64,000 nucleotides of DNA from Bolinopsis microptera (lineage: Eukaryota > Ctenophora > Tentaculata > Lobata > Bolinopsidae), in the NCBI RefSeq assembly GCF_026151205.1, contig NC_087075.1:10648303-10712302 (forward strand), read 5' to 3'. The position numbers were made by a program, and so were the translations under genes. Shown one piece after another: positions 16,501-58,800 of this stretch; position 1 is the stretch's first letter; every line of letters begins with the position of its first letter. The notes beneath the pieces are model-generated. The model was given only the letters and a program-made list of their open reading frames with translations. It made no database searches and had not been told where the DNA came from.

Positions 16501-19500
16501 ACAGTATCCGAACAGTCAAACACATCCTGATGAAGAATTCAGTGTTAGAAATATAAGTTAAGTTAACAATGTTAGAAATATTGGAAATTTTAAAAGTAAA
16601 GAAAAAAAGTGAAAGGTGAAAAAGCGAGATTCCAAAATTGGATGCAAAGAATCTCACTTTTTTTCACATGGACTACCCCTTCCTACACTTAATGATCTTT
16701 ATTCAACCCAACACACGTTGGTGTATTATTAGCAACTTAAGTTCTAACCTCATCAGTTTTAGGCTTCACGTACTCTACAGAGGAAGTATCCTGGACGATG
16801 AACTCTACTTTTAGGTCTGTGTAAGCGTTATCTCCTAGCTTCACGTAGAATGTCTTCTGGTCACAGTCAGCACTTCCACACACGTACACGATCCCTGGAT
16901 GAGGGTTTAGTTAAAATGTCTACTTGAGATAAAACGCAATCACTTTTAAGATAAGAAGTTCCACTTTCAAACACAGGTTTTAGACGGGATGTTTTAATTT
17001 CGATATTGAGTTTAAATTTTCAACTTTAATCTTTTAATTGAACAGTAAAATTCACATAGGGAAGTAAAAATTATCACCCATCGAGCACAGTTTCCTGAAG
17101 ACCCAAATTTCTCGGTTACCTACCAATTCCGCCGGAGATGGAATCCCGCACGTTCTTGCAAGCGTCGTAAATACGCCGCGCAGCATCTTTAGTGATGAAG
17201 TATCTGATACCGGACACTGTGGTCCTCGAATCAGTGGCATTCAAAGTCGAATTAGTTATCTGAAATAGGGAGAACCATCAATTGCAAAGCTCAAGAATGT
17301 CTGATAGTGATACAAAATATTGCACGAATAAGATAGATAGATAAATATTTCTAACAGAACCAATCATACCAGAAATTTCTAATCACACATGAAGACTATT
17401 ATCAGCATACTTAAAATACCTGAATGAACTGGGCGTGGTTGGGATCACAAAAGAAAGCACATTCTATTGCCTGGAAGTCCCAGTAGCATGCATCACAACC
17501 GCCTATGATGTTCTTCACTACGTCCAACCTGAAATATTAGAGAATGTTAATTTTGTACATATAATACATGTAATAGGTAGGTCTCATCTAAAATTAACTG
17601 TTTTTGAACAAGTTTGATCGTTAAAAAGGTTTGTATCTTACTGTTTGATAAAGTCTTGGAGCTGATCTTTATCACAGCAAACATTCTCTTTATCTGCGTA
17701 CTGGAAAATGTAAATTATACTACAGAGAGAACGGAAAAAGCATATGAAATAACCCCAGCCTCACCAAGATCACCAAGATTACCAAGATCACCAAGATCAC
17801 CAAGATCACCAAGATCACCAAAATCACCAAGATCACCAAGATTACCAAGATCACCAAGATCACCAAGATCACCAAGATCACCAAGATCACTGATCAAACG
17901 TTTTGATAGTCTTTATATTTATGTATATTGTATAAGTAACTTATGTTTAGTTTTATATTTAATAGGCAAGTTATATCGATATTTCGACTAACCATAGGAC
18001 AAGCAGTCTTCAAGAGTTGTAGGTGTTCATCGTCAGGTACTATTGGATCCACTGTATTATGAGCACAGGGTAAACTTGATCCACAGGAATTCTGAGGTGG
18101 GGAATGTGTTAGAAATGAGAATATAACAAGGATATAACAAGAATATAACAAGAATATAACATATAATACCTTCCGGGAATTATATCCACTAAAAGTCTCG
18201 GACACTGAGAGCTGATAATTTGCCGATATATCCCGCAAGGGAAGCATATAATAAACTAGAAACCCGCTAGTTGAAAGCTTTGTTCGAAGAAATTTAAAAA
18301 ATCAGTTATGTTTTAATTTCTATTCATCATCTAGCTCTGTTATACTGTAGAAATTTTGGATTCTTTCGTCAAGTTTTAGATATAAATAGATATATTCTCG
18401 ATTGTATTGCCTGAATAAATAGTATCTGGAGAGAATATTTGTAGGATACAATACTTGAGTAGGAACAGTGTGCCTCGTGACGTGTAAAGCTGTAGGTGCT
18501 TTGCACGACAATAGCTGGATAACGCAACATTGTTCACACTTCACACACGTTTCGTGTACCTTCTTAGCTTATCAATTACAGTGAATGGGATATTGAGTAG
18601 GGATAAGGGAATGTTATGACATGATTGGATCTTGTGATATAAAGTAACAGTAGCTCATCGCATGTAATCCTCAACAAGCTAGTATATTTTTACTACAAGC
18701 TTACAGGAAAAATGTTTCATCCTTTTATTTTGTTCTCGATAGACTCGGCCTGGGTCAGCTGCCTTATAAAGCGAAACAAATCTATTCATTGCTATAGCTC
18801 AATTTAGAACATGTTCACTTCTTAATTTCTAGCTTCTATGTACAGAGTTGTCATATGAACTCTACCCCAGATCTAGCCCATATTTTCTAGGTCAATTATA
18901 TTCAATCCATGGATCACATCACTAATTATACGCCACAAGCTTCAAGCTTATTCACGCTGTTATCAATCTACCTTTTTGTTCGTATTGATTCGTGATCAAA
19001 GGGACCTGGGACAGTTACAATATTCCGTATTATTACAACCTGTTCCTGACCATATATTTATCTTGTACGATTTTAAAGCTTTTTTTTAGTATGAGTGTTG
19101 TGCCTTATAATATGGTAAACACTAGTTTTCTGCCTACCTAGCTCATAGGCTTCCTCAAACCTGTAAATCCACTAGCTGAAAGCTTTATTCAAGGAAATTT
19201 AAAATCAGTTATGTTATAGTTTCTTTTCATCATGAATCATCTATCTATCTACTTATCTATGATCTAGCAGCTAGCTCCGTAATATAAATTATATGGATTT
19301 TTATTTGCTGTTAACGATAAAGGTTTTATTTAATTCCCTAATCGATACTTTTCACCGCATCAAAAAACATCAATCACAACCACAGTTATGGATAAATTGT
19401 AAATTGTAATGTGAGCTGGTTATGACTACGTATCATAGAGCATGGCAACGCGCGTTGCTAATCTGTTCTTGCTCGCGCACGTGCAATCTCTTGATGTTGC

Positions 19501-52800: not shown

Positions 52801-55800
52801 GAGATCTGTTACTTCCTGTTCAATCATCTCACACTTCACTATTGTATATCTCCTTCATTATCTCCTGGCACCAGTCCAAACTTCCTGCCCAAATACCTGA
52901 TGATAGCCACGCTCTGAGTTATCTTTATATCACCGTCTATCAGATAAGGAAGATTTGGCAGATCCAATCCTAGATTGTATTTCTCTGCCTTCCACCGAGT
53001 GAACCCTGTTTTATCCAGAGGATCTTGGTCATCTTTCCAGCTCACACCGGAGTATCTGAGTATAAGGCGGGATATCTCACCCATAGCACGCACATTCCAG
53101 TAGCAGAGTGTTATTGACATTCCTTCTACAATCATGTGAAATAATCAGGTTAGAATATAGGCTGACTTTTTGCCGCATTGCAATTTGCAGCACGAATAAA
53201 AAGTATAAAAATGAAGATAAATTGTTGCAAACCTTTCTTTTTGTTTCCAATACCGTCCACCCAGTGAACTAGAGCGATAACTTCATCTTCAGAGGACTTC
53301 CACCGGGACGAGAGAACTCCCTGAAAATGGGAACTTTTAGATCTCTGATTTTTAATCTCTCGAGATATGTTATTAAAGTGAGTGTGCAAGTTAAAGTATA
53401 CAATTAGTTAGGGCAAGAGTTGATTTTTCTGTGAACAAATTCGTAACAAAGGTTTGTATACAGGAATGTGTTGTCCATAGTCCCAGGAACCACAAAAAAA
53501 AACTTTTGGGCAAACATTTTTATAGTCATTTTTCTCCAGGAACCCATACGCCCCACCCCTAATATTGGTTATTCGACTCCCGAAGCACTTGAGATCTCCA
53601 AAGGGGATGCAAAATGACCGCAATGGCCACATTATGGCAGGCGAATGATAGTTTCAGAACGATTGGGGCTTTATTTTTCGAAATAAATGGAATTTTTCTA
53701 AATTTTTCTCAATTTTATTGAAATTTCGAAAAAAAATACACCAAATTATTCTTAACGCTTATTTCAAATCTATTTCAAAACTCATCTACAAATAACAAAT
53801 ACAGTTAATCTAAAATGTGTATTCTCAGTAAATACCATGACAATTATTAATACACAGTTAATATTAATCAAAATTCGCTTGTTCTTCAGGTTCATCATGT
53901 CTAATGTTTGTGCAGTTCATACCATGGCATCGTACACAAATATTGAAGCCATATTTCCTACATGAACATCTGAAAGTCAAACAGGCCTGTTCCACATCGA
54001 CAGAACAGTTACAACATATAAGGTTCAAAATAGACTCTGGAGCATTTATAGCTTTTGTTGCAACTGGTTCGTAAGTGCCACCAGGAGCCAATTTCCAGCC
54101 GTAGTCAAGAGGATTCAGACTGTCAGCGTTGAGCATGACCCAGTTATGGTACTGTAAGTAAGCTCTAAGGATGTGCTCCGTTGCTGAAGCTATTGTTGGA
54201 GGTAGCCTATTCGGATTGAGACTCTTTTTCGCTACCATCCTATTGTATGCTAGGAATCTCAAAGCAGAAAGAGTCTTTTTCTTGTCACCATAAATGTACT
54301 GCAAGAAACAGAGGCCTGCCTCAATAATCTTTTCTTTTGATTCTAACACCGAAAGTAATGTTGCCAACTGACCTTGCTCATCAAAGGTGAGAGCTTTCTT
54401 TAGCACTTTAATTTTTAACCTTACTAAAACCAAACAGTCCACTGACGCTATCACAACCTGAAATACTATGAATTAGAAGAAGTATCTCCTTTTCTTTATG
54501 ATCTAGATGACTTGATATTTCTTTGATTGAATATGTACCCTTCTTCGTTGTTAGATAAATATCATTGTGATGGTCACTGTTGAAATGATGTACTAATAGA
54601 CAAACTATATCGGTATCCTCTGCCTTCAATTCAACATCGCCAAGGAATGACATTTCCAATGTTTTCTTTGCAATTAAAGTATCAGCATCGTTACAAGCTC
54701 TGATCACTTCAATACCATTTACAGTAAAAATGCTTGAGATAAGGTCGATCAGTTCTTTTTTGTTATTGTTGTTGCTCAGAAATGTTGTTTTGGTGACAGT
54801 ACAAAAGGTGGATTTCTTTACAGCAATATTAGCACAGAACGCTTTTACTCTCCTCTTGTGCTCGTGATCTTTAGTAGAAGGCTCATATCCATCAAAAATC
54901 ACAATAACTTCCCGATTTTTTGGGATAAGCTTCAGCCAACCTCCATCAATGACTAGTGGGATCGTGAAGCTGCAAGATTTAAGTGTAGATTGGTTTATGT
55001 TTTTGAGGTAGCTACCAAGAGCAGCCTTATTAGATTTCCTCATCATCTGATATTGATCAAATAAGCTCATCGGCACCACAGTTAACTCGTATGTTAGGCA
55101 TTCCTCTATTGAAGTTTCTCTATCAGCAACCAAGACTAGACGGTTAAAACACTTCAACGGATCGACTGCAACGCTTTTATTATTCACTTTAACCTGCTTT
55201 CTTAGTTGTGTCAAGTTCTTTGCTTTACCTTTGATACTTATCTTATCGATGAATGTCAACCCATCTAGCTCACGTTGAAGGACAGCCCCAACGGCCAAAC
55301 ATTCCTCGGGATTCACCTCATCGTTCCCAGACTGTGATATAAGACCAGTCGAAAAAGATATTAACTTAGTCTTATCTTCGGATTCTGTAAAGTCGACAAT
55401 AACTTTAAACCAAGTTAATAATTTTCCAAATACATCACAGTTTTTCTTGATTGATGACTTGGTAAGATCTGAGTGGATGGCAGCTTTAGTTGGTACTAAA
55501 GCTAATTCAGTACCAACTAGTTGGTAGTTGGTACTGAATTAGCTAATGAATCTCCAAAAGACTGATTTATTAAAGCCATCTGATTCAGGGTGGCCACCTA
55601 TAACTTGTGAGCGGACTCACGATTACGCATCCTTCCACTTGTTAATCTACCACTAGATTTACCTGCCCTCATAAGGCTCTGCTCTATGGAGAGGTCAGTC
55701 CACACCCCGGCCCACTCGTGGTCGTTGTAAAGTTGTAACAAACCGTGTGAAGCCCAGTTACTTTAAAGGTCTTTAAAAGCACCCCATACTTGACTTCAAA

Positions 55801-58800
55801 AATAGCATCCTGCTCCAAATACAGTCTTAAAGCTTTTGCATACTGTCCCCTACCAGCTGCTGCGAAGTAGGGCAGCATCAAAGCTACTGCTGATAAGTGC
55901 ATATTGTAGTCGTGCAACCTCTCTGCTCTTATGAAGTCCTTTACTAGTGTTATCATGTTGTGGTAAGTAACCCATAGAGCTGATGTTCTACTGTTGGAAA
56001 ACAGGTTCTTTAGAAGCAGAGTTATTTTCTCTGATAAATCCTGAATAGATTTAGTCTTAAAGTTAACACCTAGATTTTCGTTCACACATTTGTCGATGTA
56101 ATCTTCCAAGTCTACTAGTTCATCGTCGTAAACTTCTTCCTCTATAATGAAACAACAAAGAGCGGCGTCGATTTAATGTACCCCATACAGTTTTTTTTCT
56201 ACTTTATTCATATTATTTATCATTCTTATCTATACTACGTTTATGTCTCTTTTTATCACCAGCCCTATTTTTCTTATCTGAATTTTCTCTTTTCGTAAAC
56301 AGTTTTCTCTCATCACAATTTGTTCTTTAAATCTGCTGTTGTTTGTTAGTTAACCTTGATATTTGTTAATTGAAGTTATTTCCCGAGTAAGATTTGAAAT
56401 AAGCGTTAAAAATAATTTGGTGTATTTTTTTTCGAAATTTCAATAAAATTGAGAAAAATTGAGAAAAATTCCATTTATTTCGAAAAATAAAGCCCCAATC
56501 GTTCTGAAACTATCATTCGCCTGCCATAATGTGGCCATTGCGGTCATTTTGCACCCCCTATAGAGATCTCAAGACCTTCGGGAGCCGAATAACCAATATT
56601 AGGGGTGGGGCGTATGGGTTCCTGGAGAAAAATGACTATAAAAATTTTTGCCCAAAAGTTTCAGCTGGACAGTTTTTTTTGGTGGTTCCTGGGACTATGG
56701 ACAACACATTCCTGTAGACAAACCTTTGTTACGAATTTGTTCACAGATTGACCCATAAACAGCAATTCTTGCCCTAACTAAATAAGAAAAGTATTTTTTG
56801 TGGGGGCTGACTATATTAAAGTATATTAAAATGTAGGTATTTTTGCCGATTTGACCCCGGGAATATACTTGAACACACTTTAATATAAAGGTTATATCCC
56901 CAATTTTGTTTGCAGGTAAAGCTGTAAGGGGAGGGAGAGAGAAGCAGCTAGAAGTATCGTGATCAAATTAGACCTTGTATATATTTCAGATAGAGTTGCT
57001 GCAGGCCACTGTGCTTTATGGTACGGCACCAGTTTGTCGGGCACGTGATAACCGAGTGACGAAGTCACGAGGAACAGTCACTTGATAGATAACGTGACCT
57101 ATGTTAGCCAGCGAGAAGGGCTGGATTTCATGCTCAAGCAAAATTAGATTCACAATTCACATCATTATAGTTTGAGAGAACAGCAAGGGTTTTACCTGGG
57201 AAGTGGGGACCCCAGGCTATAATGTTCATATAATGTCCAAGTTCTATAACTTACCTTAAAGTTTTATAGGCCATATTTCCGAGTGTCTTCGTGGTTTAAA
57301 TATTTGTGGACGTGTAGTAAGATAAAGCCCCAAGTCATGTAATCAAATTAAGAAATAGACTGAACAATTCGATTCGTTAACTGCTGCCCCCTTTTAATTC
57401 GATTTTCTTTATAATTTTATAACGCTTTTGAAAATTCAGGGTTTTTTATAAATTCAGCTTATAATGGTAATCTTTCTTCGCTCTTATACTTGTTATAAGT
57501 GTGTCGATGGTTTAATAGTTCGTCGACAACTATCAAACTAAATTCTGTTTATAATACTAAATAATCATGGATGGGTTGCAGAATAATTAGGTTTTGATAC
57601 AATTATTAACTTATATAATCATTGACAAATAAAGTTTTTTGATACAACCACAGTGATATCACTGAAGAAAATATAAACATCATACATAATATTACATTGT
57701 CAACTCGAACATAAAAATGCGCAATATGTATAAAATATACACTGTTCAACTAGTTCTTGGCACGGTTAATGCACGGTTAATGCATGGTGAAGGCACGGTT
57801 AAGGCACAAGGGTTACATAAGGCAAGGTTGAGGCACGGTCACTTAATGCACGGTTAACGCACAAACTGCCCATAAGCAACCATTATGGTTGCTTAAGGCA
57901 CGGTTAACGCACGGTTAACGCACGGTTAACTAAGGCACATGATCTGAATGTGACGATCCAGACTCTTCAAATTAAGTTAACATCTCCTGAGCAAGAATCC
58001 CGAGATTCATGCTTACTAATTATGTACTCACTAGACGGAAATTTTCTTCTTCTTGTTACTATAGTTCATCTACCACAGTCCTGAATACACATTATCTTAT
58101 CTCATGGAATGAGATATTCATGGAATGTGTGGCTGTAAGTGTCATTGTCAATTGTTACTATAGTTCATCTACCACAGTCCTGAATACACATTATCTTATC
58201 TCATGGAATGAGATATTCATGGAATGTGTGGCTGTAAGTGTCATTGTCAATTGTTACTATAGTTCATCTACCACAGTCCTGAATACACATACCTTAGTTC
58301 CCAAAAATTTGTGTGCCATTATATTGAGCACAATTTATTTGAGCCCGAAAAATTTGGGCAGAAAATTTGAACTCATTTGGGCGACCGAAAATTTGGGCAC
58401 AAATTCTTCGAAAAATGAACGATTTTCCACTAAAATTTCAGTTAGATATTTGCCTTAGTTCATTATTACTCCTTATAGTTATTATTCCAGTCATTTGCTA
58501 GCTATTCCAGTTATTTCTATTCATTTAAAATATAAGCCTTTTTACTTGGTCAAGCCATGAATGACAGATTAGAAAACCAAAATTTCAAATATTATTTCAC
58601 TTGGATATGAAGAAAAAGCCATCTTTCTATAGATTTCAGGGCCACAGGCCAAATGCCAAAAGTTTGGTTAGCAAAAAATTTGGCAGACGGAAAAGATTTA
58701 TGCAATTAATTTGGTCTGCAAAAAATTTGGGCGAGAGGCCCGCTCAAATTTTTTGTCGCCCAAATTTTTGGGAATTAAGGTATCTTATATCATGGAATGA

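Follow-up and report, generated by a model that had tools for sequence, protein, structure and literature searches.

The locus described here raises the question of how a transposon might move when its only recognizable gene appears to encode a flap-type nuclease. The element lies at positions 53405-56780 of a 64,000-nucleotide stretch of Bolinopsis microptera contig NC_087075.1 (hereafter, the window), and carries a gene on the minus strand that is split over several frames. A sequence-only reading of this stretch had described a unit with long terminal inverted repeats (TIRs), possible AAT duplications and one decayed gene, had seen no DDE transposase, and had proposed that a FEN1/XPG-like nuclease with a Cys-rich tail may drive an undescribed system.

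The window element and its family

The inverted ends and the AAT duplications are real. The TIRs extend over about 390 aligned columns, are identical at 356 of the first 400 columns when gaps are counted, were resolved by the inverted-repeat search into three blocks (302, 94 and 28 nt), and are bordered by AAT on both sides (Table 1). All of the acidic motifs quoted for the single decayed gene, together with its Cys cluster, were likewise located in the window. As to the surroundings, a minus-strand frame near the insertion (52839-53144) resembles a glutathione S-transferase exon by reading of the frame, and 11-bp tandem repeats (GCACGGTTAAT-like) occur in two clusters about 1 kb past the element (57755-57940).

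Table 1. Features of the window element and its immediate borders (window coordinates)
Feature	Position	Strand	Basis or remark
Target-site duplication AAT, left copy	53402-53404		flank reading
Terminal inverted repeat, gene 3' end	53405-53790		inner border approximate
Open frame, C-terminal gene part; Cys cluster (CXC-like) at 53912-54016	53867-54472	-	relative L046 passes PF03638 (CXC); the family profile matches LIN54 at E 0.053
Open frame, FEN1/XPG-like nuclease (VIDGG 54939-54953, IFDGYE 54882-54899, NDADT 54678-54692, EDTD 54609-54620, SGCD 54450-54461, GFSK 54420-54431)	54411-55538	-	motifs and profile comparison
Frame-shifted piece with one TAG stop; TDLSIEQ at 55679-55699	55538-55729	-	candidate third catalytic E, codon 55682-55684
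Open frame, portion of the probable transposase half that lies upstream of the nuclease; IRAERLHDYNMHL at 55894-55932	55687-56172	-	frame listing, comparison with relatives
Stretch marking loss of the gene 5' part	56173-56300		comparison with loci
Terminal inverted repeat, gene 5' end	56390-56780		inner border approximate
Target-site duplication AAT, right copy	56781-56783		flank reading

When one TIR was compared with the 264.65-Mb genome, at least 40 matches of 90-100% identity were obtained, the window's own included; this count is a lower bound, as 298 candidates appeared at first look and 40 were scored. The 376-aa window frame gave 179 gene matches in the genome, at more than one per copy. 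We read 19 loci of this family, designated family A, and both ends were present in 16 (L012, L023 and L027 were dropped for want of one end). Target-site duplications (TSDs) of 3 bp flank 15 of these 16 copies, the exception being L014 with 4 bp (TATT), while mispaired flanks used as a control agreed in 12 of 240 comparisons. The duplicated triplets are diverse (AAT, CTA, TTT, TAA, TTA, AGA, TGA, TGT, TAC and ACT). PIF/Harbinger elements also generate 3-bp TSDs, but prefer TWA targets, and TAA or TTA accounts for only 3 of the 15 3-bp duplications, which does not fit that preference; nor do the duplications fit Kolobok, whose TSD is TTAA, a sequence found in none of the 16.

Empty sites were sought by comparing the joined flanks of 18 insertions (16 of family A, two of the related family B described below) with the loci read, and three matched across the junction. 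The L022 insertion has a clean empty counterpart in L040 with a single TGA; the counterpart of the L017 insertion, at window 18540-18790, keeps TAA in a noisy alignment; and that of the L018 insertion, in L028, does not keep the triplet. Window 18540-18790 is 79% like the joined flanks of the L017 insertion, and by this resemblance the stretch belongs to a repeat that is used as a target elsewhere. The duplications and the genomic copies rule out a chance inverted repeat, and the supposition that the family moves as a unit is borne out by the abundance of the TIRs, the recurrent 3-bp TSDs and the one clean empty site. The window element is thus a member of a young, multi-copy TIR transposon family that inserts as a unit.

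The youth of family A follows from its aligned coding bases, which are 97.4-98.8% identical to those of L009 in 20 of the 21 loci compared, L027 being without such a stretch. Several lesions are also common to multiple copies. For example, a 2-bp insertion in the coding stretch is shared by 8 of the 21 loci (L014 has one a single base away), and an in-frame 15-bp deletion is likewise common to 8 of the 21, the stretch itself being absent in some loci. Such shared lesions indicate that a broken master copy multiplied, which counts against a working nuclease in family A, and multiplication of broken copies in turn implies movement in trans. Relative to L009, the family-A coding stretch carries 22 distinct frame-breaking indels, 17 of which are insertions, and 11 of these insertions are 5-8 bp long; the latter are possibly the footprints of other transposons that have since departed.

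The nuclease domain and its cysteine-rich tail

After VIDGGWL, the window nuclease frame is missing 54 in-frame bases that are present in sister copies. The profile built for this domain comprised eight relatives, with the window copy left out and its near sister L009 included. Compared by hhalign with a profile assembled from portions of the host's four FEN1-type genes, which were found with PF00867 and which we read as FEN1, EXO1, XPG and GEN1, it gave a probability of 93% and an E-value of 3.4e-7 over 204 columns. Controls were clean: the upstream half of the protein (see below) scored 0.2% against the FEN profile and 0.1% against the nuclease half, 20 column shuffles gave at most 0.3%, and the reversed profile gave 0.1%. 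With pairs of rows left out, the probability stayed at 83-94%. Against the PDB, five exonuclease 1 sequences headed the eight-row search (E 7e-4 to 0.036); next came LIN54, aligned to the Cys tail at E 0.053, then a 5'-3' exonuclease at 0.13 and, at 0.22, an unrelated pyrophosphatase. An earlier four-row profile had placed EXO1 at E 0.22. Single sequences yielded nothing useful against the PDB, single nuclease-family proteins did not reach the Pfam XPG models, and a single-sequence structure model of the window frame had a mean pLDDT of 29.6. A pattern search of prokaryote genomes found no FEN1 relatives.

Collectively, these profile comparisons support membership of the nuclease half in the FEN1/XPG family, as the sequence-only reading had proposed from the motifs. 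The likeness to FEN1, XPG, EXO1 and GEN1 resides in the order of the acidic motifs, the G(C)D region and the profile alignment; the difference is that here the domain is embedded in a longer transposon protein, between an upstream half and a Cys tail.

The Cys-rich tail resembles a CXC (Tesmin/TSO1-like) domain such as that of LIN54, the likeness consisting of a C-terminal Cys cluster, the LIN54 match of the family profile and a PF03638 score above cut-off in the one relative L046. By contrast, L042, L047 and L048 fall below the PF03638 cut-off, and the window tail frame has no Pfam match to CXC; the L028 tail scores weakly with another CXC model. Both the tail and the Cys motifs found elsewhere in the protein may bind DNA.

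Fuller relatives and a candidate transposase half

Family B, which is about 58% identical to family A, and a set of more distant loci show what has been lost from the window copy. One complete family-B element (L010+L033) is 7.7 kb long, with TIR arms 98.4% alike over 370 bp and a main frame of 1342 aa, upstream of which lie frames with Cys/His motifs that we read as further exons. TSDs read by eye in three family-B elements are GTT (L010+L033), ATA and TAT. In two further copies, an inverted duplicate of the gene's 3' end occupies the opposite terminus and lengthens the TIR: the inverted arms are 1,097 bp and 99.5% alike in L029 (774-1870 and 3444-4538), and 616 bp and 99.0% alike in L030 (521-1136 and 4030-4644). 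Among the distant relatives, L042 has an intact 1550-aa frame between 404-bp TIR arms (97.3%) in an element of about 6.95 kb whose own TSD is not clear. Both halves of the gene are present in one frame in L042, L043 and L044 and in two frames in L028, L045, L046 and L048; in L047 the front of the gene is missing.

Family-A matches to family-B residues 1-624 begin at residue 404 or beyond, and in a locus-by-locus comparison, in which 18 of the 19 family-A loci were matched, none begins before residue 404; the family-A gene therefore begins at the TIR. Below residue 356, the only matches besides L010 itself are a short one (9-82) and the distant L028 (from 307). In the window copy, the gene begins at residue 556 (family-B numbering), and positions 55538-56172, upstream of the nuclease, are a remnant of the larger conserved half. 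Window 56173-56300 has no match in the other loci compared; in its place, L011, a sister copy, carries 323 bases, among them coding DNA for the second candidate D.

The upstream half was aligned over seven sequences, of which L011 falls short of the first candidate D and the L028 frame stops before the candidate E. All six sequences that reach the first D (in DN) retain it; the second D and a G-x-[FL]-H motif are present in 7 of 7, and 6 of 6 have the E, which lies within [LIM]E[QK]. These residues correspond to D449, D626, G652/H655 and E880 in L042, and the D, D and E to D312, D481 and E716 in L010. Some DDE transposases have a long insert ahead of the catalytic E. Further residues are invariant in the same alignment, and the D/D/E triad is thus only a proposal. 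Searches of Pfam, NCBIfam and the PDB gave no match of this half as a transposase; DUF6589 matched it at E 6e-4 in L045 and L047, below the model's cut-off, and in the genome gave two weak matches, one of which was read and held short frames only. We infer that the upstream half probably represents a transposase of the RNase-H/DDE type. The first candidate D is missing from family A, and both D's are missing from the window copy, which keeps the E codon; without the first candidate catalytic residue, family A must be moved in trans.

Selection was compared by region in L042 and L044, both of which are open throughout. Overall dN/dS for this pair is 0.128, and with region borders set by us the values are 0.236 for the N-terminal region, 0.109 for the upstream half, 0.202 for the middle, and 0.061 for both the nuclease and the tail. 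Both halves are therefore under purifying selection in this pair, and in this one comparison the constraint on the nuclease is no weaker than that on the transposase half. Other pairs gave 0.328 (L010 vs L030), 0.277 from four changes (L043 vs L046) and, as expected for decay, 0.863 (L047 vs L045); L009 vs L010 was saturated. The copies expected to share TIRs and gene were found as a family, but the fuller relatives show a larger gene than that of the window, and the idea that the nuclease is the only gene content, or the whole machine, gives way to a protein with a conserved upstream half that bears candidate D, D and E residues and is selected in the pair tested.

Relationship to Academ elements and a possible mechanism

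The nuclease of AcademX elements, treated by Kojima in 2020, is reportedly XPG-like. In the accessible portions of the literature searched, no account of an XPG-encoding Academ was found. The available text of one 2023 source assigns TSDs of 3-4 bp to AcademX and 9-10 bp to AcademH and relates them to an encoded nuclease or helicase, respectively (PMC10045372), and excerpts of others count Academ among the DDD/E superfamilies (PMC9587614), name AcademH helicases (PMC10799480), list Academ in Repbase (PMC4455052), and apply Academ DDE/D profiles to bivalves, where Academ elements average 5565 bp (PMC10294476). The window family shares with AcademX, as described there, both the nuclease and the 3- or 4-bp TSDs; it differs in that the front of the gene is missing from the window copy and from the family-A copies read, and the comparison is with a published description. 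AcademH belongs to the same superfamily according to these excerpts, but has a helicase and 9-10-bp TSDs, in contrast to the nuclease and the 3-bp (once 4-bp) TSDs observed here.

We consider it highly probable (about 0.85) that the window element, young yet decayed, is a non-autonomous copy of a cut-and-paste transposon of AcademX type, Academ being compared by description only, and that the complete form encodes a single protein comprising N-terminal Cys/His motifs, the upstream half, the FEN1/XPG-like nuclease and the CXC-like tail. As a nuclease together with 3-4-bp TSDs is already in print for AcademX, at least in the text available, the proposal of an undescribed system without a transposase is most likely wrong, and a transposon driven only by a flap nuclease yields to a known class. 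What this adds is a set of apparently intact relatives within one genome and the comparison of selection on the nuclease and on the transposase half, which together open the nuclease's function in AcademX-like elements to direct testing. The patterns used found no relatives in viral contigs or in prokaryote genomes.

Two alternatives bear on this assignment. A separate, undescribed superfamily outside Academ, in which a DDE-like half and a FEN/XPG nuclease occur together, would be compatible with an agreement that covers broad features only, and by description, but it has little likelihood given that nuclease, TSD length and element size all fit what the accessible literature says of AcademX and Academ. 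That the FEN1/XPG-like domain is itself the transposase, with the upstream half only binding DNA or assembling the complex, is very improbable: while the nuclease has the lowest regional dN/dS (level with the tail) and no transposase model matched the upstream half, conservation of the latter, invariant acidic residues included, extends across six or seven sequences, the half is itself under selection, and FEN enzymes are not known to carry out strand transfer. The placement of Academ among the DDD/E superfamilies, in the text available, also speaks against it (PMC9587614).

For the AcademX-type reading, we infer a division of labour in which the transposase half would bind the TIRs, excise the element and join it to the target with a 3-bp stagger, and the nuclease would trim flaps, second strands or gaps in the course of excision or joining. 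Family A would have depended on proteins supplied in trans, for which a B-type element whose ends are related is a possible source. A stronger version, in which transposition requires the FEN1/XPG domain as a second catalyst, the DDE half joining the ends and the flap-type nuclease cutting or trimming the opposite strand and determining the 3-bp stagger, seems to us unlikely.

Other repeats accompany several relatives. Long minisatellites (HAHRDNITQMNRLY-like repeat; L043:3840-4508 and L046:3-827) adjoin two related Academ-like copies. In addition, L040:2928-6615 contains a nuclease-family fragment between ends (CAGGGACAAAAGG...) that we take to be hAT-like, with an 8-bp repeat (ATAGTGTA) on the flanks; it looks like an element with an 8-bp TSD that holds, or was hit by, an Academ-like fragment.
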